Assembly (NCBI GenBank): GCA_949283695.1
Contig: CASDTX010000002.1
Coordinates: forward strand, 1 to 58,077
Direction of reading: 5' to 3'
Source: an uncultured Eubacteriales bacterium
GTDB taxonomy: Bacteria; Bacillota; Clostridia; Lachnospirales; Lachnospiraceae
Length of the DNA: 58,077 nt
Each line of letters starts with the position of its first letter. Within the stretch, counting starts at the first letter, position 1. The notes below the pieces were generated by a model. It worked only from the letters and a program-made list of their open reading frames with translations. It made no database searches and was not told the DNA's origin. The translations under genes were made by a program, and so were the position numbers. Below, piece by piece: positions 40,563 to 50,968 of the stretch.

Positions 40563-40708
40563 GGCCGCTTCTTTGCTTATGGGCGTTTTAAAACAGGGAA
40601 AAATGTGATACACTGGCGGTATGACAGAGTGCAGCGGAAGAGCGGGCGTGCTGCCCCTTGTGCACCGACGCTGCGAAATCAGGAAACGGGCAACCGGAGG
40701 AGATCATC

Positions 40709-41686
40709 ATGAGAGAGAATAGATATGGCGCGCAGCGCGTCATCGATGAAGTTGAGAAGGCAGTGGTGGGAAAACGGGAGGTTCTGACCAAGATCATGAC
40801 AGCGATCCTGGCAGGAGGACATGTACTGATTGAGGATATCCCGGGCACGGGGAAGACAACGATGGCCCTGGCGTTTTCCCGGGCGATGGGACTGGAGGTG
40901 AAGCGGGTCCAGTTCACCCCGGACGTGCTTCCGGCGGATCTGACCGGATTTACGGTCTATCAGAAAGAGACCGGCCGGTTCCTCTACCAGCCGGGGGCTG
41001 CGATCTGCAACCTTCTGCTGGCAGATGAGATCAACCGGACCTCTCCGAAGACACAGTCCGCTTTGCTGGAGGTTATGGAAGAACAGCAGGTGACCGTGGA
41101 CGGAGTGACTCACCGGACGGGCGACCCGTTCATTGTGATCGCCACAGAGAATCCGGCAGGATCCGCGGGAACACAGCTTCTTCCGGAATCTCAGCTGGAC
41201 AGGTTCATGATCTGTGTCAGCATGGGATACCCTTCTCTGGAGGAAGAGGTAGAGATTCTTAAGAGAGGAAGGAACAGCCGAAGGTCTTATGAAGATGTGA
41301 TCCCGGTGCTTGATCCAGAGAGACTGCTGGCTATGCGCAGGGAAGCGGACGAGATCTTTGTTCACGACAGATTGTATCAGTATATTGCGGAGCTGGTGAA
41401 GGCCACCAGAGAAAATGAATGGACAGAGCTGGGGATCAGCCCGAGGGGAAGTGTGGCTCTGACAGCGATGGCCAAAGCCTGCGCCTGGATGAAAGGCCGC
41501 GCTTATGTGATCCCGGCGGACGTGCAGGAAGTATTTCCCTGTGTGGCGGTTCACAGAATCTTTCTGAATATGAAGGCAAAGGTCGGACACATCCGGACGG
41601 AAGAACTGATCCGTCAGATCCTGGAAAGCGTTCCGGGACCGTCGCTGAAAGCGCGGCAGCAGCCGGCAGGAGGGAAAAATGATTAG
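40709..41686 (+). CDS. MoxR-family AAA+ ATPase
   Basis: A 325-residue ATPase. Walker A is IPGTGKTT, Walker B LLLADEINRTSPKTQSALLEVMEE, with sensor IATENPAG and the C-terminal AAA lid (about 230-310). MoxR proteins act as chaperone-like remodelling ATPases, often with DUF58 partners. The start at 40709 has CGGAGGAG 6 nt upstream; the frame is open to 40658. It overlaps the DUF58 gene by 8 nt, and a transglutaminase gene follows: the usual MoxR-DUF58-transglutaminase set. Confidence 0.92.
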   Translation: MRENRYGAQRVIDEVEKAVVGKREVLTKIMTAILAGGHVLIEDIPGTGKTTMALAFSRAMGLEVKRVQFTPDVLPADLTGFTVYQKETGRFLYQPGAAICNLLLADEINRTSPKTQSALLEVMEEQQVTVDGVTHRTGDPFIVIATENPAGSAGTQLLPESQLDRFMICVSMGYPSLEEEVEILKRGRNSRRSYEDVIPVLDPERLLAMRREADEIFVHDRLYQYIAELVKATRENEWTELGISPRGSVALTAMAKACAWMKGRAYVIPADVQEVFPCVAVHRIFLNMKAKVGHIRTEELIRQILESVPGPSLKARQQPAGGKND

Positions 41687-42734
41687 ACGAATGATCGGAT
41701 ACGCGGCGGTCCTGCTGCTGATGATCTACCTGTACTTTATGTATGATGACAGGGTGATCTCGGGGATGCTGGTCTTAACGGTTCTCTGTCCGGCGGCGTC
41801 TGCTGCATTTCTGATCCCGGTGAGGGGTAAGGTGATTCCGGATCTGAAGCGAGTTCCGCCGGTGGGGGAAGCGGGCAGAGAGATCCGGGCAGGCATCACG
41901 GTCGAAAACCGGTCTCCGTTCCTGGCGCTTCGGTATGAGGTCCTGATTCTCATGGGAAACAGCCGGGACCGGAAGCCCGGCAGGAGACGCTGCCGGGGAA
42001 TGGTAAGCGGGGGCGGCGAAGAGACGCTCTGGTGCGGATTCCAGACAGAACTCTGCGGCAGTGTGAATGTAGAGATTCCGGAGATTCGGATCTACGACCC
42101 TCTGGGACTTTTCTTCCTGAGAAGAAAGTGCGCAAGCAAGGCAGTGGTCAAGATCATGCCGGAGTTTGAGCTGATGCCCGTGGAAATCACCCGGAGGACA
42201 AGAGAATTTCAGGCGGACGCGGAGGTGTATTCCGGGGAGAGAAGAGGGGACGATCCTTCAGAAATCTACCAGGTGAGACCGTACCGTGCCATGGATTCGC
42301 TGCGGGATGTTCACTGGAAGCTAAGTGCAAAGGAAGAAGAACTGATGGTGAAGGAACGGAGCTTTCCGCTTGGATGCGCAGTCCTGGTCTGGTTCGACCT
42401 CCGGGAGACAGACTGTACGGCAGAAGGATTTTCCGATCTGGTGAAGAGAGCTGCGGCGCTGTCTGTCACGCTGGCAGAAGAAGCGTGCATTCACATGGCA
42501 GCGTGGTATGAAGAGAAGAATGAGCGGATTGTGAAATGGCGTGTGGACGACGAGGAGAGCGCTTATGATATGATCTGGCATTTGCTGGATGTGGAGCCGT
42601 GCCGGGATATCGAGAAGCGTGAGATCTGCTATGAAGATACATTCCGCGGGATGGAGTTTGCCGCGGTTGTGACGATCGACGGAAAAGGCAGGATGAAAAA
42701 GAACGGCCAGGAAGCAGAACTGCTTCGGCTGTGA
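41679..42734 (+). CDS. DUF58-domain protein
   Basis: A 351-residue protein with two N-terminal helices (about 5-22, 28-46), a beta-rich part, and the DUF58 motif ERRGDDPSEIYQVRPYRAMDSLRDVHWKLSAKEEELMVKE (about 187-225). DUF58 proteins have a vWA-like fold and work with MoxR ATPases. It overlaps moxR by 8 nt and lies 19 nt before the transglutaminase gene. Function is unknown beyond the association with envelope processes. Confidence 0.9.
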   Translation: MIRRMIGYAAVLLLMIYLYFMYDDRVISGMLVLTVLCPAASAAFLIPVRGKVIPDLKRVPPVGEAGREIRAGITVENRSPFLALRYEVLILMGNSRDRKPGRRRCRGMVSGGGEETLWCGFQTELCGSVNVEIPEIRIYDPLGLFFLRRKCASKAVVKIMPEFELMPVEITRRTREFQADAEVYSGERRGDDPSEIYQVRPYRAMDSLRDVHWKLSAKEEELMVKERSFPLGCAVLVWFDLRETDCTAEGFSDLVKRAAALSVTLAEEACIHMAAWYEEKNERIVKWRVDDEESAYDMIWHLLDVEPCRDIEKREICYEDTFRGMEFAAVVTIDGKGRMKKNGQEAELLRL

Positions 42735-42753
42735 CAGGAAAGGAGGCCTGCGT

Positions 42754-44934
42754 GTGGACAGGAAGAGTGCCGGAATTCGGATCTATCGGAACGGCTTGGA
42801 GACCGGAAGAGGAGGCAGAGAGAATCCCTCTGTCTCTGTTTTGCTGTGTTTCTTTTTGTGTACATTTGTTCTGGCGTCTGCCTGGTGGAACGCGCTGATC
42901 TCTGTCTTTGGCTTTGCCTTCAGATCCGGATGGGTGTATGCGGGAACCGGGGCTGTGTGTGCGGTTCTTGTCATCCTGCACCGGCTGCTGGGGAAGAAGA
43001 CCCTGGTTCTGGCTGCGGCTGCCGCGGGGATCGTGCTGTGGATCTGCAGAGATGCTGCGGCGGAGCTGATCTCTGCGGCAGCGGCTCTGGCAGCGGAGGG
43101 ACTGAAGGCGGTGTCAGGGGGCAGCGCCTATACCGGGGCGTCAGGCGGGGGAACCGGGGGAGCTGCCGAAGTGGCCGCCGTGTTCCTGACCGTGCCGTTT
43201 CTGGAACTGTGGATTCTGGCACTGCAGCAGAAGCGTGCCCGGGCAGCCGCTGTTTTGGCGGCGCTTGTGCCGTTTATCGCAGGAGCCTGCGCGGGGTATT
43301 TCCCTGCTGTCCGGGCTTCCTGGGCGCTGCTCTTAGCCATCGGAGCGTATGCGGTATGCTGCGGCGCAGAGCTGTGTCTGACGGGAGGCACGTCTGAGAA
43401 AAGGAAAGAGCTGCAGGTTTTCTTTACCTTTGGCGTGCTCTGTATCCTGGCGGGAGTGTCCGCGTTCGCAGGACGGGCGCTGGACGGCGGGAGAGAGACC
43501 GCGGGAAGCTTCTACCAGACAGCCCGGGGAAGGATCCGCGAAGATGTGATCGGCAGAGTTGAGGAGACGGTCCGGGGCCTGCAGGGACAGGAAGAAACTG
43601 AGCCGGAAGATCAGGAGCAGGGAACCCGGGAACAAGAATCTGAGGACCGGCGGGCTCCGGCTTCTGAAGAGCCCGCCGGGAATGGGGACCGTACAGGAGC
43701 GCTGGAAGCTCCGGGGGCCGGGTTCCGTTCGGGAAGCTCAATGGAGGATCTGGGTTCTCTTCGTTACTTCTCGCCGGATGATTCTGTCAGCGGGGAAATC
43801 GTCCTGCCGGAGAAACCGGCGGGAACCGTATACCTTCCGGAGCGTGTGGGAGTCGCGTATGCAGACAATGCCTGGCGGGGACCGGAGGAATCGTATGATT
43901 ACAGCTCCCGGATCCTGATGGGAATGCCGGAGGGCCACTGGGAGGATATCGTTCCGGAAGGCTGTCTGGCTTATCCGGGGAGTCTGGAACAGCTGCAGGA
44001 GCTCTGCTCCGGGTGGGATCCGGATTCCCTGCAGGCAGCGGCGCAGGAGATTGACCGGGCACTTTCCGAACGGGCAGTCTATGATACAGAGCCGGGGGCA
44101 GTGCCTTCCGGGCAGGACTTTGCCGAGTATTTCCTCTTTGAGAATCACAGAGGTTTCTGCGTGCACTTCGCCACTGCGGCGGTGCTGCTGTACCGGATGT
44201 GCGGGTATCCGGCCAGGTATGCGGAGGGATTCGCCATTCCTGCGTCCGCGTTCACCGCGGATCAGGACGGCCAGTATGCGGCACAGATCGACGGAAGTAT
44301 GGGACATGCCTGGTGTCAGGTTTATGATGAGAACTCCGGAGAGTGGCTGGATATGGAGCATACCCCTGCGGCCGGAACCGGAGGGAACGGAGCGGACGAA
44401 CCGGAGGCAGAGGGCCAGGAAACAGAGAACCAGGGAAGCGGCGGAAGGATCGGCCTGCCGGGGGAAGGGGAAGGAGCCGGGCTGTTCAGCCGGGCTGCGG
44501 TAAGGGTGATCCTCCGGGTTCTCTGCGCGGCAGCGGTCCTGGCGTCTGCGCTGGCAGCCTTCTTATTGCAGGCAGGAATCCGAACGAGACGCCGGCACCG
44601 CAGAATGCGGAGAAGAGCGAAGGGGACAGGAACTCTGGAAATCTATGCCGCGGTCTGCAGGACCTGGGCCTTTCAGAACGGAAGAACCCGGGGAGGAGAG
44701 CCATTGGATGCAGGTACCCTGGAAGGTTTGAAAGAGGCTTATCCGGAGATCCCGCCGGAGGACTGGGACTGGATGTACGAGCGGGTCCTGGAGGCCATGT
44801 TCTATCAGCCGGATGGGAAGAGAGAGACAGCGGCGCGGATGTACCAGCTGTATGGAACGTTCGTCCGTGCGGCTGAGGCCGGAATGGGCCGGTGCAAGAG
44901 AATCATATGGAAATATATCCTCTGTCTTGGCTGA
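42754..44934 (+). CDS. Transglutaminase-like membrane protein
   Basis: A 726-residue protein. About six N-terminal helices (25-255) precede an extracellular part with a transglutaminase core (about 425-540): the Cys in HRGFCVHFATAAVLLYRM, the His in MGHAWCQVYDE and the Asp in EWLDMEHTP form the papain-like triad. A further helix (about 585-605) and a cytoplasmic tail (DUF4129-like, ending in a Trp/Tyr-rich segment) follow. Start is GTG at 42754 with GGAGG 8 nt upstream. The Glu/Arg-rich linker (about 270-325) is probably disordered. It completes the MoxR-DUF58-transglutaminase operon; substrate unknown. Confidence 0.88.
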   Translation: MDRKSAGIRIYRNGLETGRGGRENPSVSVLLCFFLCTFVLASAWWNALISVFGFAFRSGWVYAGTGAVCAVLVILHRLLGKKTLVLAAAAAGIVLWICRDAAAELISAAAALAAEGLKAVSGGSAYTGASGGGTGGAAEVAAVFLTVPFLELWILALQQKRARAAAVLAALVPFIAGACAGYFPAVRASWALLLAIGAYAVCCGAELCLTGGTSEKRKELQVFFTFGVLCILAGVSAFAGRALDGGRETAGSFYQTARGRIREDVIGRVEETVRGLQGQEETEPEDQEQGTREQESEDRRAPASEEPAGNGDRTGALEAPGAGFRSGSSMEDLGSLRYFSPDDSVSGEIVLPEKPAGTVYLPERVGVAYADNAWRGPEESYDYSSRILMGMPEGHWEDIVPEGCLAYPGSLEQLQELCSGWDPDSLQAAAQEIDRALSERAVYDTEPGAVPSGQDFAEYFLFENHRGFCVHFATAAVLLYRMCGYPARYAEGFAIPASAFTADQDGQYAAQIDGSMGHAWCQVYDENSGEWLDMEHTPAAGTGGNGADEPEAEGQETENQGSGGRIGLPGEGEGAGLFSRAAVRVILRVLCAAAVLASALAAFLLQAGIRTRRRHRRMRRRAKGTGTLEIYAAVCRTWAFQNGRTRGGEPLDAGTLEGLKEAYPEIPPEDWDWMYERVLEAMFYQPDGKRETAARMYQLYGTFVRAAEAGMGRCKRIIWKYILCLG

Positions 44935-45500: not shown

Positions 45501-45545
45501 TTGAATACATGTATACAATTCGACAGAAATTCTTCGAATCTGCCA

Positions 45546-45575
45546 TTGCATGTTACTATGCAACAATGGTATAAT
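45546..45575 (+). promoter_or_regulatory. Promoter with internal dyad before the DUF5717 gene
   Basis: TTGCAT (45546-45551), 18-bp spacer, TATAAT (45570-45575). The -35 hexamer is one half of an inverted repeat, TTGCAT-6-ATGCAA, placed between the boxes like an operator. Confidence 0.6.
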
Positions 45576-45589
45576 TCATAGTAGCGTAT

Positions 45590-45607
45590 TTTTGCCCTTC
45601 GGCAAAA
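45590..45607 (+). other. Small hairpin in the DUF5717 leader
   Basis: TTTTGCC (45590-45596) pairs with GGCAAAA (45601-45607) over the loop CTTC. It lies between promoter and ribosome binding site and has no T-tract, so an mRNA-stability or translation effect is possible. Confidence 0.4.
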
Positions 45608-45633: not shown

Positions 45634-48600
45634 TTGAAAAATAAGATCAAACGTTTTGCAAAGGGAGATTTCCATATCCCGCAGCCGGAGATCATCTTCC
45701 CGGAGACCCATATTACGATGCGGGTCGGGGAAGGAGAAAAATACAGGGGGAGCTTTTCACTCCAGAATCAGGGGGAGGGGACCATACGAGGCCTCGTATA
45801 CCCCTCCTCTTATCGTGTCCACTGTGACGAGCAGGGCTTCGACTGCAATCCGGTGAACATCTATTATACATATGATGGGAGCGGGCTTCTGCCCGGACAT
45901 GTAGAGCACGGCAAGTTTACCATCGTCTGCAACGGCGGTGAGTTTGACGTGTCTTTTACGGCGATTATTGAGAAGCCGTATGTCATGACGAATTATGGGA
46001 AGATTCAGAGCCTGGAAGATTTTAAGAAGCTGGCATTCCGGGACGCCGCCGAGGCTGTGAAGCTGTTCCGTTCCCGGGATTTCTATGAGATCCTGAAGTA
46101 TGAGGATAAGAGGATCCAGGCGCTCTATGACAACATGCGCAAGTGGGAGCTTGACCAGCAGGCGCTGGAGGAATTCCTGGTCGGCTGCAAGCAGAAGGAG
46201 AAGATCTTCCTGACGCTCGAGGAGGAGAGCCGCGCATTTATGTCGCTTACAGAAGCGCGCAAGGAGACATTCACGATCAAGAAGAATACCTGGGGATATC
46301 TGGAAATCGACGTGAAGACAGAAGGAGATTTCCTGACAGTGGAGCACACCCGGATTTCGACAGAGGAGTTTATCGGGAATTCTTATCGGCTGGAATATTT
46401 CCTGAATACAGAGAAACTGCATAAAGGAAGCAACTTCGGGCGGATCTTCCTGGAATCTCCCTATGAGATGCTGGTCTACGAGGTCGTGGTGGAGAAGGAT
46501 GTCAGCCGGGATGAAGAGCACCGGGCGAATGACCGTGAATTTACCGGGATTATCAAGAATTTTCTGAAGTGTGAAGGCGGACGGATGGAGAAGTCCGAGT
46601 GGATCACTGAGGCTTGCAGGCGGATTCGCCATCTGCGGGAAATGGACGAAAAGAATGAGGTGTATCTTCTCGTTCACGCACATATCTGCATCCTCGGAGG
46701 CCGGATGGCGGAGGCCAAGGAGATTCTGGAGTCCTATAATTATAACCGCTTTGCCATCGGAAAGGATGTGGAGCTGAGCTCGTATTATCTGTATCTGACC
46801 ACCTTCCTGTCCGGCGATACCATCAGCCAGCGCAAGGTCGCGGAAGAGCTGTCCCGGTCCTTTATGAAGCATCCGGACAGCTGGAAGATCCTCTGTATGC
46901 TGGTAGAGATTGATTCGGAATATAAGATCTACAGTGAGCGGCTGCGGGCGCTGGAGAAGCAGTTCTATGAGGATGGTTCTCACAGCATCTGGTTCTATCT
47001 GCAGGCGTTCCGGTGCTTCCGGGAGAAGAGTACTTCCCTGAAGAAACTGGGGAAATTCGAAGTCAGAGTGCTTCTTTTCGCTGTGAAACGCGGACTGATG
47101 ACGAGGGAGCTGGCGCTGTATACAGCGAACCTGGCCAGCCAGATGAAGGTATTTGACAGCCATCTGTATGATGTGCTTGTGCTCTCTTATGAGATGTACC
47201 ATGAGTCCATGATCCTGACTTCCATCTGTACCCTTCTGATTAAAGGAAACTGTATATCGACCCGGTATTTCAAGTGGTATGAGAAGGCAGTGGAGTCGGA
47301 GCTGAAGATTGCCCAGCTGTATGAATACTATATGGCTTCGGTGATCCCGGAGAAGTTCCACAAGCCTCTTCCAAGATCCGTATATCTGTATTTTATGCAC
47401 GGCAATACGCTGGATTATCATAAATGTGCGTTCCTGTATTCAAACCTGATTACTTATGAGGATGAGGCGAGTGAGATCTATGCCCACTACAGGGATGAGA
47501 TGGAGGCGTTTGCCTGGAATCAGCTGGACCGCAGAAATGTGGACGAACAGCTGCGGATTATCTATAAGAGATTCGTTGTAGAGCCGTCCATGAATTCGGA
47601 GCGGGTAAAGGCTCTGTACGACGTATGCCACGCATACTGGATCACAACAAAGGTCCCGAATATGAAGTATATCCATGTGATCGCGGAGGATGGAACCATC
47701 ACTCAGAAGGCGCCCTACATGGAAAACGGAGCCAAGGTTTTCCTCTATTCCAAGACGGACCGCATGGTCTGGGAGGCAAAGGACGGCCGGCATTATACGG
47801 ATTCTATTCCCTATGAGAGCAAGCGTCTGTTCTACGAACTGCGGTATATGGACATGTGCAGGAAATACATCAACGACATGCGCAGGATCCGGGCAGAGGA
47901 GGAGAATCAGGAACTGACCCTGGAGTTGGTGCATCAGAGAGGCGTTGAGAATTATTCTGAAGATGAGCTGCTGGGACTGTGCAGCCGGACCATCCGGGAG
48001 AATAATTACGAGAATGATGATTTCCTGACTTATGTCTGCTTCGAGCTGTTCAGAAAGCAGCAGTATGATAAGGTGATTCTGACCTATCTGGCGAATTATT
48101 ACTGCGGGGCCACTCCGGACATGAAGATGCTCTGGAGAGAGGCAAGAGATTACGAAGTGCATACTCATAAGCTGGGTGAACGGATCCTGACCCAGATGCT
48201 CTTCTCAGAGGAGCTCTTCCAGGAGGCACAGATCTTCGAGCAGTATTATGCGGAAGGCGCGTATTTCCGCCTGCAGCAGGCCTATCTCTCCTATGTGTCG
48301 AGAGAGTATGTCGTGGAGGAGCGGAAGATCAGCCGCAGCGTAATCGACATTATCTGCCGGGAATACGAGAAGGGCGAGAATACCATCGATATCTGCAAAC
48401 TTGCGGTGCTGAAATACTATTCCGGCAGGGAGTACAGCAACCAGACCCGCAAGACACTGAAGAAGTTCCTTCAGGAACTGTGCGGCAGGCAGATCTACTT
48501 CCCCTTCTTCCTCTCTTACGAGAAGGACTGGCTGATCGAACTTCAGCTCTGGGATAAGACACTGATCGAATATAAGGGACAGAAGGGCAGCAAGGTAATG

Positions 48601-48927
48601 CTCTATTATCAGCTTCAGAAAGGAAACACGGAGCAGACCGACTATTTCACGGAGGTTCTGACGCCGATGTATGAGAATCTCTATGTGAAGAAATTCGTCC
48701 TCTTCGCAAATGAGAGGCTGAAGTATTATTTTAAAGAGACTATAGACGGGAATTCTTACCGGAGTGATAAGGAGACCTGTGTGCGCGAGATCAGCCCGGG
48801 CGAACCCGGCAGGTATGGAAGACTGAATGACATCCTGATCGAGAAGAATGAGCAGGAGCGCAGAAAGAAGATGCGCAGCTATGCTCTGGAGGATGCGGTG
48901 GCAGTCCACATGTTCGCGCAAGAATAA
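45634..48927 (+). CDS. DUF5717-family protein (Ig-like plus TPR-like giant)
   Basis: A 1097-residue soluble protein of unknown function, of a size and sequence I recognise as DUF5717. Two beta-sandwich regions are visible (about 15-115: PETHITMRVGEGEKYRGSFSL; and about 205-300: FTIKKNTWGYLEIDVKTEGD), separated by a helical segment. From about 310 to 1000 it is helical with TPR-like helix pairs (KNEVYLLVHAHICILGGRMAEAKEILESY). No signal peptide or membrane helix is evident. Start is TTG at 45634, with AGGTGA upstream. The next gene begins 15 nt later with an actin/Hsp70-like product, so a scaffold-plus-ATPase partnership is inferred. Confidence 0.85.
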   Translation: MKNKIKRFAKGDFHIPQPEIIFPETHITMRVGEGEKYRGSFSLQNQGEGTIRGLVYPSSYRVHCDEQGFDCNPVNIYYTYDGSGLLPGHVEHGKFTIVCNGGEFDVSFTAIIEKPYVMTNYGKIQSLEDFKKLAFRDAAEAVKLFRSRDFYEILKYEDKRIQALYDNMRKWELDQQALEEFLVGCKQKEKIFLTLEEESRAFMSLTEARKETFTIKKNTWGYLEIDVKTEGDFLTVEHTRISTEEFIGNSYRLEYFLNTEKLHKGSNFGRIFLESPYEMLVYEVVVEKDVSRDEEHRANDREFTGIIKNFLKCEGGRMEKSEWITEACRRIRHLREMDEKNEVYLLVHAHICILGGRMAEAKEILESYNYNRFAIGKDVELSSYYLYLTTFLSGDTISQRKVAEELSRSFMKHPDSWKILCMLVEIDSEYKIYSERLRALEKQFYEDGSHSIWFYLQAFRCFREKSTSLKKLGKFEVRVLLFAVKRGLMTRELALYTANLASQMKVFDSHLYDVLVLSYEMYHESMILTSICTLLIKGNCISTRYFKWYEKAVESELKIAQLYEYYMASVIPEKFHKPLPRSVYLYFMHGNTLDYHKCAFLYSNLITYEDEASEIYAHYRDEMEAFAWNQLDRRNVDEQLRIIYKRFVVEPSMNSERVKALYDVCHAYWITTKVPNMKYIHVIAEDGTITQKAPYMENGAKVFLYSKTDRMVWEAKDGRHYTDSIPYESKRLFYELRYMDMCRKYINDMRRIRAEEENQELTLELVHQRGVENYSEDELLGLCSRTIRENNYENDDFLTYVCFELFRKQQYDKVILTYLANYYCGATPDMKMLWREARDYEVHTHKLGERILTQMLFSEELFQEAQIFEQYYAEGAYFRLQQAYLSYVSREYVVEERKISRSVIDIICREYEKGENTIDICKLAVLKYYSGREYSNQTRKTLKKFLQELCGRQIYFPFFLSYEKDWLIELQLWDKTLIEYKGQKGSKVMLYYQLQKGNTEQTDYFTEVLTPMYENLYVKKFVLFANERLKYYFKETIDGNSYRSDKETCVREISPGEPGRYGRLNDILIEKNEQERRKKMRSYALEDAVAVHMFAQE

Positions 48928-48942
48928 GGAGGGTGTCTTTGC

Positions 48943-50226
48943 ATGGGACAAGGCAGTATCATCGGTTATGAAATAAATGAAAAGACATGTCAGATCAGCT
49001 ATTATAATGAGGAGAAGATGGAGCCGGATACACTGGAAGTAGATACGGATAATTATCAGATTCCGCTGATTATCGGCAAGCTGAGGGATACATGGGCGTA
49101 TGGAAAAGAGGCGAAGCGTCTCGTCTCCATCAAGGAAGGGTTCACCGTTACCAGGCTTCTGAGCAAGAGTCTGGCGGGGGATAAGATCGAGTTTGGCGAG
49201 GAGACGTATGACGCGGAATGGCTTCTCTCACAGTTCATTCAGATGTCACTCCAATCCTTCCCTGAGATTGAGGGGATCGTGTTTACCGTGCCGGCGCTTA
49301 CAGAAGAACTGGCCCAGATGCTCAGAGGGATTGCCCTGCGCATGAACATCGATAAGCGGCACATCTTTATTCAGGATTATAAGGAGAGCTTCTGCAACTA
49401 TCTGTTCTATCAGCCGAAAGAACTGTGGCAGTACGACGCGGCCCTTTTCTGCTGCGACAGAAATGAGATTCGTGCGTACATGCTCCGGCGGCTGCGTCCG
49501 GGGCTGGGCGGCGGCAAGATGACGTTCGTGACCGTGGATGAGGTGGCAAGCGCGCATATGAAAGAGCTGGCCATGGTCTACCCGGTTTTGAACGAGGACA
49601 AGGCCAAGGAAGCAGACGCCATGTTCTGCAAATTTATTGAAAGCGTATTTGACAAACGGATTGTATCCTCCGTGTTCCTGACCGGGGAGGGATTCGAGAA
49701 CAACTGGTATCCAAAGGCGCTGCGGGTGCTGTGCAACGGAAGGCGGGCCTTCATCGGGAATAATCTGTACAGCAAGGGCGCATGCCATACCGCATACCGC
49801 AAACTGTCCATGCACATCGAGAATCCGGTTTACCTTGCGGAGGATAAGCTGACGGATCAGATCACCGTCAATATGCGGATCGACGGCCAGGAATTGTGGT
49901 ATCCGATTGTATCCTGGGGCGCGCACTGGTACGAATCAAACAACCAGTGGGAGATTCTGATGGAGAAAGTGGAGGATATTGAGTTCCATATCGAGTCGCT
50001 GATTCAGGGGACGATGAGGACGGAGACGATCTCTATGGACAGATTCCCCAAGCGGGCAGAGTATTCCATGAGGATCCGCCTTGAAACCCAGTTCCTGAAT
50101 GAAAAGACATGCAAGATTACCGTGTGGGACGCGGGATTCGGGGATTTCTTTCCGGCCACAGATTTCCGCGTAGAGAAGACGATACACTTAGGAGGCAATG
50201 ATGGGAAATTTAATTCTTTGTCATGA
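48943..50226 (+). CDS. DUF5716-family protein with actin/Hsp70-like fold
   Basis: A 427-residue soluble protein. The first 290 residues run parallel to an Hsp70/actin ATPase: strand start IIGYEINEKTCQISYY (phosphate-1 position), EGIVFTVPALTEELAQMLRGIALRMNI (Hsp70 VPAYF region), IFIQDYKESFCNYLFYQ (the INEPTAAALAY position), YDAALFCCDRNEIRAYML (phosphate-2) and VSSVFLTGEGF with LYSKGACHTAY (adenosine region). Phosphate-loop glycines are weakly conserved, so ATPase activity is uncertain. A beta-rich C-terminal part (about 300-427) might be substrate-binding-like. Known as DUF5716; function undescribed. It lies 15 nt after DUF5717 with a good AGGAGG site and overlaps the next gene. Confidence 0.82.
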   Translation: MGQGSIIGYEINEKTCQISYYNEEKMEPDTLEVDTDNYQIPLIIGKLRDTWAYGKEAKRLVSIKEGFTVTRLLSKSLAGDKIEFGEETYDAEWLLSQFIQMSLQSFPEIEGIVFTVPALTEELAQMLRGIALRMNIDKRHIFIQDYKESFCNYLFYQPKELWQYDAALFCCDRNEIRAYMLRRLRPGLGGGKMTFVTVDEVASAHMKELAMVYPVLNEDKAKEADAMFCKFIESVFDKRIVSSVFLTGEGFENNWYPKALRVLCNGRRAFIGNNLYSKGACHTAYRKLSMHIENPVYLAEDKLTDQITVNMRIDGQELWYPIVSWGAHWYESNNQWEILMEKVEDIEFHIESLIQGTMRTETISMDRFPKRAEYSMRIRLETQFLNEKTCKITVWDAGFGDFFPATDFRVEKTIHLGGNDGKFNSLS

Positions 50227-50968
50227 CAGGCATGCAGTACAGCCGTATGAGATTACCAGGATCCACTGCCGGATCTATACCATTGAAGAGCTGTGCTTCT
50301 ATCTGTGCAACAATCTCTATCTGATCGACTATACGATCATGAACGGGCAGCTCTGTGACTGGCTTGACGAGGAACTGGGCATGGAGAGCCTGGCGTCAGC
50401 TCTGAGAGATGTGCTCCGCCTGCACGGCTCCGTGGAGAAGTTCGTCCTGACGATCCTGAAGTCCTCGAAGATCTACAGAGAGCCTGAGATGATCCGGATC
50501 CAGAACGTACTGGAACATCTGAAGAATCAGAAAGATATCGAGCGGCAGAAGTTCAAGGGGGACAATCTTCTGGAGAGCGGCGAGGTGGAAGAGGCGATCC
50601 TCGTCTACCAGGCAATCATGAATCAGGAGAAGGATGAGACTGTAGATGATAAATTCTACGGGAAAATCTACGCAGGCCTTGGCGCGGCTTACGGCCGGCT
50701 CTTCCTGTATCAGGAGTCAGCCCGCATGTATGACCGGGCTTACCAGATCTGCGGGGACCGGGCTCTGCTCAAACCGTATCTCTATGCTTCTTATAAATAT
50801 ATGTCGCTGGAAGAATACCATATCCTGATCACAAAGAATGAACAGTATATGGAGATCAATGCGCAGATGCGCAGGGAAATCGATGAGGTGAAGAAAAACC
50901 TGACGGAGGATACAGATCCCGGGCTCATTGACAAATGGAAAAGACAGCACCGCCGGAGTCATTCATAG
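50201..50968 (+). CDS. Small TPR-like protein of the DUF5717/DUF5716 set
   Basis: A 255-residue protein that I do not recognise beyond its helical repeats. The first 110 residues, with CFYLCNNLYLIDYTIMNGQLCDWLDEELGM, are conserved in character; about 118-200 are TPR-like helix pairs (KGDNLLESGEVEEAILVYQAIMNQ and GKIYAGLGAAYGRLFLYQESARMYDRAY). The C-terminus is charged. The start at 50201 has GGAGG 5 nt upstream and overlaps the DUF5716 end by 26 nt, so it is translationally coupled and probably binds the same complex. Confidence 0.78.
   Translation: MGNLILCHDRHAVQPYEITRIHCRIYTIEELCFYLCNNLYLIDYTIMNGQLCDWLDEELGMESLASALRDVLRLHGSVEKFVLTILKSSKIYREPEMIRIQNVLEHLKNQKDIERQKFKGDNLLESGEVEEAILVYQAIMNQEKDETVDDKFYGKIYAGLGAAYGRLFLYQESARMYDRAYQICGDRALLKPYLYASYKYMSLEEYHILITKNEQYMEINAQMRREIDEVKKNLTEDTDPGLIDKWKRQHRRSHS

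Follow-up and report, generated by a model that had tools for sequence, protein, structure and literature searches.

A conserved three-gene set of Lachnospiraceae with a probable lidless pseudo-Hsp70

The stretch of DNA analysed here (the window) comprises 58,077 nucleotides of contig CASDTX010000002.1, from an uncultured Eubacteriales bacterium of the Lachnospiraceae (assembly GCA_949283695.1), and carries between positions 45,634 and 50,968 a plus-strand unit of three genes. They are as tightly packed as a first-pass annotation had described. The first gene (45634..48927), with a TTG start codon, encodes a DUF5717 protein of 1097 residues (Pfam PF18984, E 6.5e-213; PF18983, E 6.4e-101). The second (48943..50226), behind a gap of 15 bases, encodes a DUF5716 protein of 427 residues (PF18980, E 1.2e-100), and the third (50198..50968), which overlaps it by 29 bases, a tetratricopeptide-repeat (TPR)-like protein of 256 residues with a conserved N-terminal segment, YTIEELCF. 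None of the three proteins is matched by an NCBIfam model above the cut-off of that model. In a Kyte-Doolittle scan of 19-residue stretches, their maxima are 1.26, 1.04 and 0.78; because no stretch reaches the membrane threshold of 1.6, none resembles a membrane helix and all three proteins are likely cytoplasmic, as already proposed. Of 15 comparisons with close relatives, 9 had a computable dS; in these, the ratio of nonsynonymous to synonymous substitution rates (dN/dS) lies at 0.03-0.10, a rough estimate since dS exceeds 1 there.

The DUF5716 protein is a divergent member of the Hsp70 superfamily. Its AlphaFold2 model (mean predicted local distance difference test, pLDDT, 80.6; predicted template modelling score, pTM, 0.80) begins with a part resembling the Hsp70 nucleotide-binding domain (NBD; residues 1-292, 48943..49818, plus strand). 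This is followed by a part resembling the beta subdomain of the substrate-binding domain (SBD-beta; residues 296-416, 49828..50190, plus strand), recognized from the strands of the model and from whole-length matches to DnaK and to Hsp70 chains of the ribosome-associated complex (RAC). An NBD fold followed by an SBD-beta is the arrangement that marks the Hsp70 superfamily. The C-terminal helical lid is absent: the final strand runs to residue 415 of the 427, and a single four-residue helix follows. The 50 Foldseek and 50 VIA matches listed are all Hsp70-type chains or complexes holding one, and, among the matches listed, the VIA list is headed by RAC and Ssz1 chains together with DnaK. In sequence, the A1 profile matches DnaK in the PDB at E 2.8e-5, and the bridge copy matches DnaK at E 7.9e-22. 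The Hsp70-like motif order noticed earlier in this protein thus fits both profile and model; the proposed actin/Hsp70-fold core holds at the level of the superfamily, on its Hsp70 side and not as an actin-like protein.

The set is a constant feature of its family, taken to be Lachnospiraceae from the named relatives (best 80 of at least 592 matches), the nearest of which is a Mediterraneibacter with 92% identity. PF18980 matches 117 of 120 sampled own-family genera, in one place each, and PF18983 matches 116. Across the phylum sample, PF18980 was found in 4/299 genomes, all of the own family. The order sample gave 29/56 genomes (27 above the cut-off), with PF18984 in 30/56; both families co-occur in 28 of these genomes and are jointly missing from 25 (Fisher p 2e-12). 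In the class sample, PF18984 is present in 10/245 genomes, nine of the own family and one weak match (E 8e-5) outside the order. None of 93 pattern matches in viral contigs proved to be a relative.

Linkage was counted in 115 of the 117 family loci, excluding two (L206, L208) where the open reading frame (ORF) caller had picked an overlapping antisense frame; there too, the positions of the profile matches place DUF5716 and DUF5717 side by side. DUF5717 lies at most 1 kb upstream of DUF5716 on the same strand in 112 loci, with a median gap of 15 bases. The three loci without an adjacent DUF5717 include one with DUF5716 near a contig end (G009) and one with the genes on different contigs (G039); a genome 67% complete (G020) has no DUF5717 match. 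The TPR gene adjoins DUF5716 in 106 loci (median gap 1) and is fused to it in four, whose ORFs (684-723 residues) match both profiles in order. Among the named relatives, 79/80 loci hold all three genes and one holds DUF5717 only (plus-strand ORF scan). The linkage of the three genes is non-random, and they are kept together in other genomes, a point on which the first-pass annotation had made its reading depend.

Other families of the order carry a longer DUF5717/DUF5716 neighbourhood with several Hsp70s; hence, contrary to what had been suggested, the set is not strictly specific to Lachnospiraceae. In these sister operons, DUF5717 is split into two genes of ~400 and ~900 residues in nine fetched loci and is a single 1326-residue gene in L090. 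The Hsp70s are a protein of ~559 residues (Hsp70-559), a degenerate copy a (~523 residues), a copy b (~547) and a fusion to a vWA domain (Hsp70-vWA, ~692). A protein of ~630 residues with a GrpE domain at its C-terminal end and a TPR protein of ~387 residues complete the operon, of which not all sister loci hold every part, some being cut or scattered. In L090, Pfam recognizes HSP70 in the 559-residue protein (5.1e-76), GrpE (3e-13), DUF5717_N (1.6e-84), HSP70 with VWA (4.5e-96 and 1.9e-10), and, in copies a and b, both DUF5716_C (1.5e-26 and 7.4e-10) and HSP70 (1.4e-17 and 7.4e-63). The five operon proteins scanned in L095 agree, and the a and b copies scanned all match PF00012 (HSP70), except copy a of L081. 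Since copies a and b match both HSP70 and DUF5716_C, they tie DUF5716 to Hsp70. The family DUF5716 profile aligns with copy a at E 1.5e-59 over 425 columns and with copy b at E 4.3e-24 (hhalign). Hsp70 fold and ancestry of DUF5716 are thus well supported. In L081 (5205-8384, the G420 operon), the Hsp70-vWA and TPR genes each occupy two frames, through either decay or an assembly error.

The ATP site is degenerate. Eight catalytic or phosphate-binding positions (D8, G10, T11, K70, E171, D194, T199 and D201, in what we take to be DnaK numbering) were checked in an alignment of 4 DnaK, 10 Hsp70-vWA, 12 Hsp70-559, 15 b, 17 a and 113 family rows, the latter drawn from 122 own-family loci after exclusion of fused, short (<350 residues) and BLAST-missed rows. 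All eight are intact in the 41 rows of DnaK, Hsp70-vWA, Hsp70-559 and b. Copy a keeps D8 in 17 rows, G10 in 16, T11 in 3, K70 in none, E171 in 1, D194 in 16, and T199 and D201 in none. The corresponding counts for the 113 family rows are 95 (D8), 26 (G10), 2 (T11), 0 (K70), 0 (E171), 59 (D194), 3 (T199) and 3 (D201). No family row keeps more than three of the eight and the window protein keeps none, having E, L, Y, C and E in place of D8, K70, E171, D194 and T199. As the equivalents of Lys70 and Glu171 are gone from the window protein and from 113/113 family rows, DUF5716 is probably not an ATPase, contrary to the first-pass annotation.

The protein also lacks the full lobe II of a canonical ATP-cycling Hsp70 of the DnaK type. 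The segment between the phosphate-2 (P2) and adenosine motifs, which we take to hold subdomain IIB in DnaK, measures 71 residues (59-83) in the family (n=113). Its median length is 143 residues in DnaK, 146 in b and 149 in a, so that the family segment falls short of those of DnaK and copy a by 70-80 residues. Subdomain IIB of lobe II is the part of Hsp70 that binds the exchange factor. The best-kept part of family DUF5716 is the adenosine-side segment, with a mean identity of 0.54 vs. 0.40-0.41 elsewhere.

A tree of 89 rows (31 of the 113 family rows, 17 a, 15 b, 12 Hsp70-559, 10 Hsp70-vWA and 4 DnaK) places the family rows in one group (Shimodaira-Hasegawa-like approximate likelihood ratio support 99), to which copy a of L081 attaches with a support of 100. 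The remaining 16 a copies group together (95), and a branch with a support of 99 separates all of these from b, Hsp70-559, Hsp70-vWA and DnaK. As printed, the tree is rooted at its midpoint; if DnaK is taken as the outgroup, which is our own reading, family DUF5716 and copy a would form one lineage, with the L081 copy nearest to the family. The simplest order of events would be that the catalytic residues went first, in a common ancestor with copy a, and that the segment shortened later.

Neither the active operon Hsp70s nor the GrpE fusion lies beside the set in any of the 115 family loci, and by cluster counts the GrpE fusion occurs in 15 sister loci and is absent from the family loci. A comparable reduction is suggested by family f136, where G458 has the long operon and G431 keeps DUF5717 and a degenerate DUF5716, with L and Y for K70 and E171 and a segment of 137 residues. 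The matches of G431 to the b profile are a 611-residue DnaK-like frame, DUF5716 itself and two short MreB-like frames. From this contrast, the active Hsp70s seem to have been lost in two lineages, both of which retained the same two genes. Persistence of the operon's active Hsp70s elsewhere in family genomes was considered and found no support in a comparison covering 20 extra family Hsp70s, each of which scores better with DnaK than with every operon copy. In 17 fetched loci (L324-L340), these extra proteins are ~560-620 residues long and 34-43% identical to DnaK. A class-wide search with the GrpE-fusion profile (240 genomes, few of them of the order) gave matches in 35. A GrpE fusion outside the order was rejected: in 34 of these, the best match is to the GrpE-like C-terminal end, in frames of 172-249 residues that resemble ordinary GrpE; in the remaining one, G513 (365-residue frame), it is to another part of the profile. 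The own family is represented among the 35 by G022 alone (239-residue frame).

As for the partners, the AlphaFold2 model of DUF5717 (pLDDT 85.1, pTM 0.46) fits the Ig-plus-helical-repeat protein recognized in the first pass: two Ig-like domains, an alpha-solenoid, a beta insert, a second solenoid and a C-terminal beta-sandwich. The secondary structure of the model, together with structure matches covering both domains (residues 17-291), places the first Ig-like domain, of PapD/MSP-like fold, at residues 19-124 (45688..46005, plus strand) and the second at residues 193-288 (46210..46497, plus strand). The third protein is TPR-like: all its own Pfam TPR matches are sub-threshold (best E 0.012), and its L090 homologue is a clear TPR protein (E 4.9e-26). 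The fusions described above join this protein to DUF5716. A fourth gene, for a coiled-coil-like protein with two predicted membrane helices, follows directly 3' of the TPR gene in 50/115 family loci and is found in three sister loci (L081, L087, L091). Its profile matches 54 of 120 family genomes, the matches in G044 (E 3.7e-4) and G084 (E 2.1e-4) being probably chance, and is without a match in the other 66 and in the window's genome (79% complete). None was seen in the fetched stretches of the 80 named relatives (plus-strand ORFs only).

On balance, we favour a core, family-wide and probably ATP-independent complex of pseudo-Hsp70, TPR protein and scaffold, descended from a larger multi-Hsp70 operon and working in an Ssz1-like manner. 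Both the catalytic death of DUF5716 and the formation of a complex are our inference. A multi-Hsp70 chaperone operon would have been reduced to the DUF5717/DUF5716/TPR core, with DUF5716 as a lidless pseudo-Hsp70 that kept the fold and the SBD-beta and lost the hydrolytic residues and about half of the lobe-II segment. Such a protein would run no ATP cycle, and for this reason its GrpE partner could be lost. The SBD-beta may bind a partner or client peptide constitutively, the TPR protein may bind DUF5716 directly, and DUF5717 would be the scaffold carrying both; the two-helix protein, encoded beside the set in a little less than half of the family genera, may tether it. The most likely role would be the holding or assembly of client proteins without ATP, in the manner of Ssz1. 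More tentatively, the conserved heart of the system may be the enzymatically dead Hsp70 itself, with active Hsp70s and exchange factor dispensable, and Lachnospiraceae may thus possess a bacterial equivalent of the Ssz1 complex, holding client chains without ATP.

Several observations weigh against this interpretation. The likeness to Ssz1 is one of fold only, tied with DnaK, and may reflect the common lack of a lid; Pfam HSP70 itself gives no match to the window DUF5716 up to E 1. The loss of catalytic residues is compatible with ATP binding, and the Asp8 and Asp194 equivalents persist in 95/113 and 59/113 family rows, neither of them in the window protein. The tree program warns of long branches, including the family rows and L081. 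Hsp70s besides DnaK occur in many of 40 family genomes (PF00012, among the matches listed). No TPR gene was found beside or fused to DUF5716 in 5/115 family loci, and no J-protein among the Pfam-scanned proteins of the window, L090 and L095, where no dedicated J-domain search was made. The domain arrangement of DUF5717 is unsure because of its low pTM.

Among other explanations, the set could be a membrane-tethered assembly factor for envelope proteins, with the two-helix protein as an integral subunit secondarily lost in some genera. The position of the fourth gene in family and sister loci would fit, as would the resemblance in fold of the first Ig-like domain of DUF5717 to pilus chaperones and MSP domains. 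However, the genomes and relatives in which that gene was not matched speak against it, and PapD-like folds are also found in cytoplasmic proteins, VAP and HYDIN domains being among the DUF5717 fold matches; we consider this unlikely. Slightly less probable still is a nucleotide-driven Hsp70 with an unusual site and a slow ATP cycle, served by ordinary GrpE and J-proteins. The retained Asp8 and Asp194 equivalents and the well-kept adenosine side would agree with it, and a canonical DnaK is present in the window's genome, so that such ordinary partners may exist. Against this stand the complete absence of the Lys70 and Glu171 equivalents, the difference of the window protein at all eight positions and the shortened lobe-II segment.

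A conflict or defence system akin to the Hsp70/GrpE theme of GAP1-N2 GTPase-centred systems is very unlikely. The parts list of the sister operon resembles that theme as set out in section 29 of PMC7159879, and two active sister Hsp70s weakly match PADLOC PDC-M61B (4.4e-07, 8.7e-11), taken here as general Hsp70 likeness. However, the three window proteins are without a PADLOC match, no relative lies in viral contigs, and the near-universal single copy (117/120 genera) differs from the scattered distribution that defence genes usually show. No GTPase was found among the scanned window genes or the scanned operon proteins of L090 and L095, only part of the neighbours being scanned; PHROGs gave no match for four proteins scanned. 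Actin and Hsp70 share the NBD fold, and the first-pass annotation had suggested a cytoskeletal machine as one of its options, but an actin-like filament (MreB/ParM type, an actin fold without SBD) with two scaffold proteins is hardly credible given the SBD-beta of the model, the exclusively Hsp70-type matches listed and the scores of sister copy b (HSP70 7.4e-63 vs. MreB 1.4e-10), and no finding of the analysis supports a cytoskeletal role. The original observation stands with a changed meaning, a core pseudo-Hsp70 set instead of an actin-like ATPase.

Upstream of the set, a promoter (45546..45575, plus strand) consists of a -35 box TTGCAT (45546-45551), an 18-base spacer and a -10 box TATAAT (45570-45575). 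It was recognized in an upstream alignment of 14 close relatives, where by-eye counts give TATAAT in 13 and TTGCAA or TTGCAT in 12; a generic promoter scan did not list it. The own promoter claimed earlier is thereby upheld. The dyad within it, TTGCAT-N6-ATGCAA, exists in the window and is not conserved, its second arm being mostly kept in only one of the 14 relatives (L264). A possible operator, TGTATACAAT (45510-45519), ends 26 bases 5' of the -35 box; by eye, it is exact in 8/14 relatives and has one mismatch in three more. Between promoter and start codon lies a short inverted repeat, TTTTTGCCCTTCGGCAAAA (45589-45607), to which, by eye, only L231 and L239 have weaker counterparts.

Further upstream (40658-44934) are genes for a MoxR-type ATPase, a DUF58-like protein (sub-cut-off) and a transglutaminase. 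This cluster was rejected as a part of the system, as it is not beside the set in 60 loci (up to five genes on each side, among the rows listed). An aminotransferase-like gene, presumably HisC/CobD-like, is divergent and immediately upstream of DUF5717 in 34/113 family loci (e.g., L124), and a gene that we take for valS lies near the set in 28; neither is constant. A protein of ~456 residues with a zinc-ribbon-like start is encoded two to four genes downstream on the same strand in L180 and nine other family loci.

Lachnospiraceae rank with the most common bacteria in the gut of mammals, and the present set is near-universal and single-copy in them. Searches of the literature on DUF5716/DUF5717 and on the parts list found nothing on it; the earlier statement that no function is described holds within that literature, and the Pfam entries of which the window proteins are members state none. 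If our reading is right, two DUF families would gain a structural identity, a whole chaperone operon would be reducible to its non-catalytic member, and the role of pseudo-Hsp70s could be studied in a bacterial example.

Of the published descriptions found, the Hsp70/GrpE theme of GAP1-N2 systems (PMC7159879) comes closest. Section 29 of that paper describes Hsp70, GrpE and an extra Hsp70 without peptide-binding domain in actinobacteria and Firmicutes, and, in the same theme, fibronectin type III (FNIII) proteins fused to DnaJ or TPR. Hsp70 paralogues, GrpE and a beta-sandwich plus TPR protein in one neighbourhood are shared with the sister operons; a single-copy family core, the vWA fusion to Hsp70 and a pseudo-Hsp70 are particular to the present system. 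DnaK is a homologue of DUF5716 and of its sister copies, and the sister operons carry a GrpE domain. Unlike DnaK, DUF5716 is without the catalytic residues, part of lobe II and the lid, and no GrpE belongs to the set. The best described parallel of DUF5716 is Ssz1 of the yeast and Chaetomium RAC, which likewise has an Hsp70 fold with the SBD-beta kept and no lid. According to the passages on it in PMC7083937, Ssz1 binds ATP and cannot hydrolyse it, needs no classical exchange factor and weakly binds nascent chains through its SBD-beta. Ssz1 is, however, eukaryotic and pairs with the J-protein Zuo1, whereas DUF5716 has a shortened lobe II and neighbours of the TPR and Ig-solenoid type. We do not claim that DUF5716 is an Ssz1; it is plausible that the set works like one.

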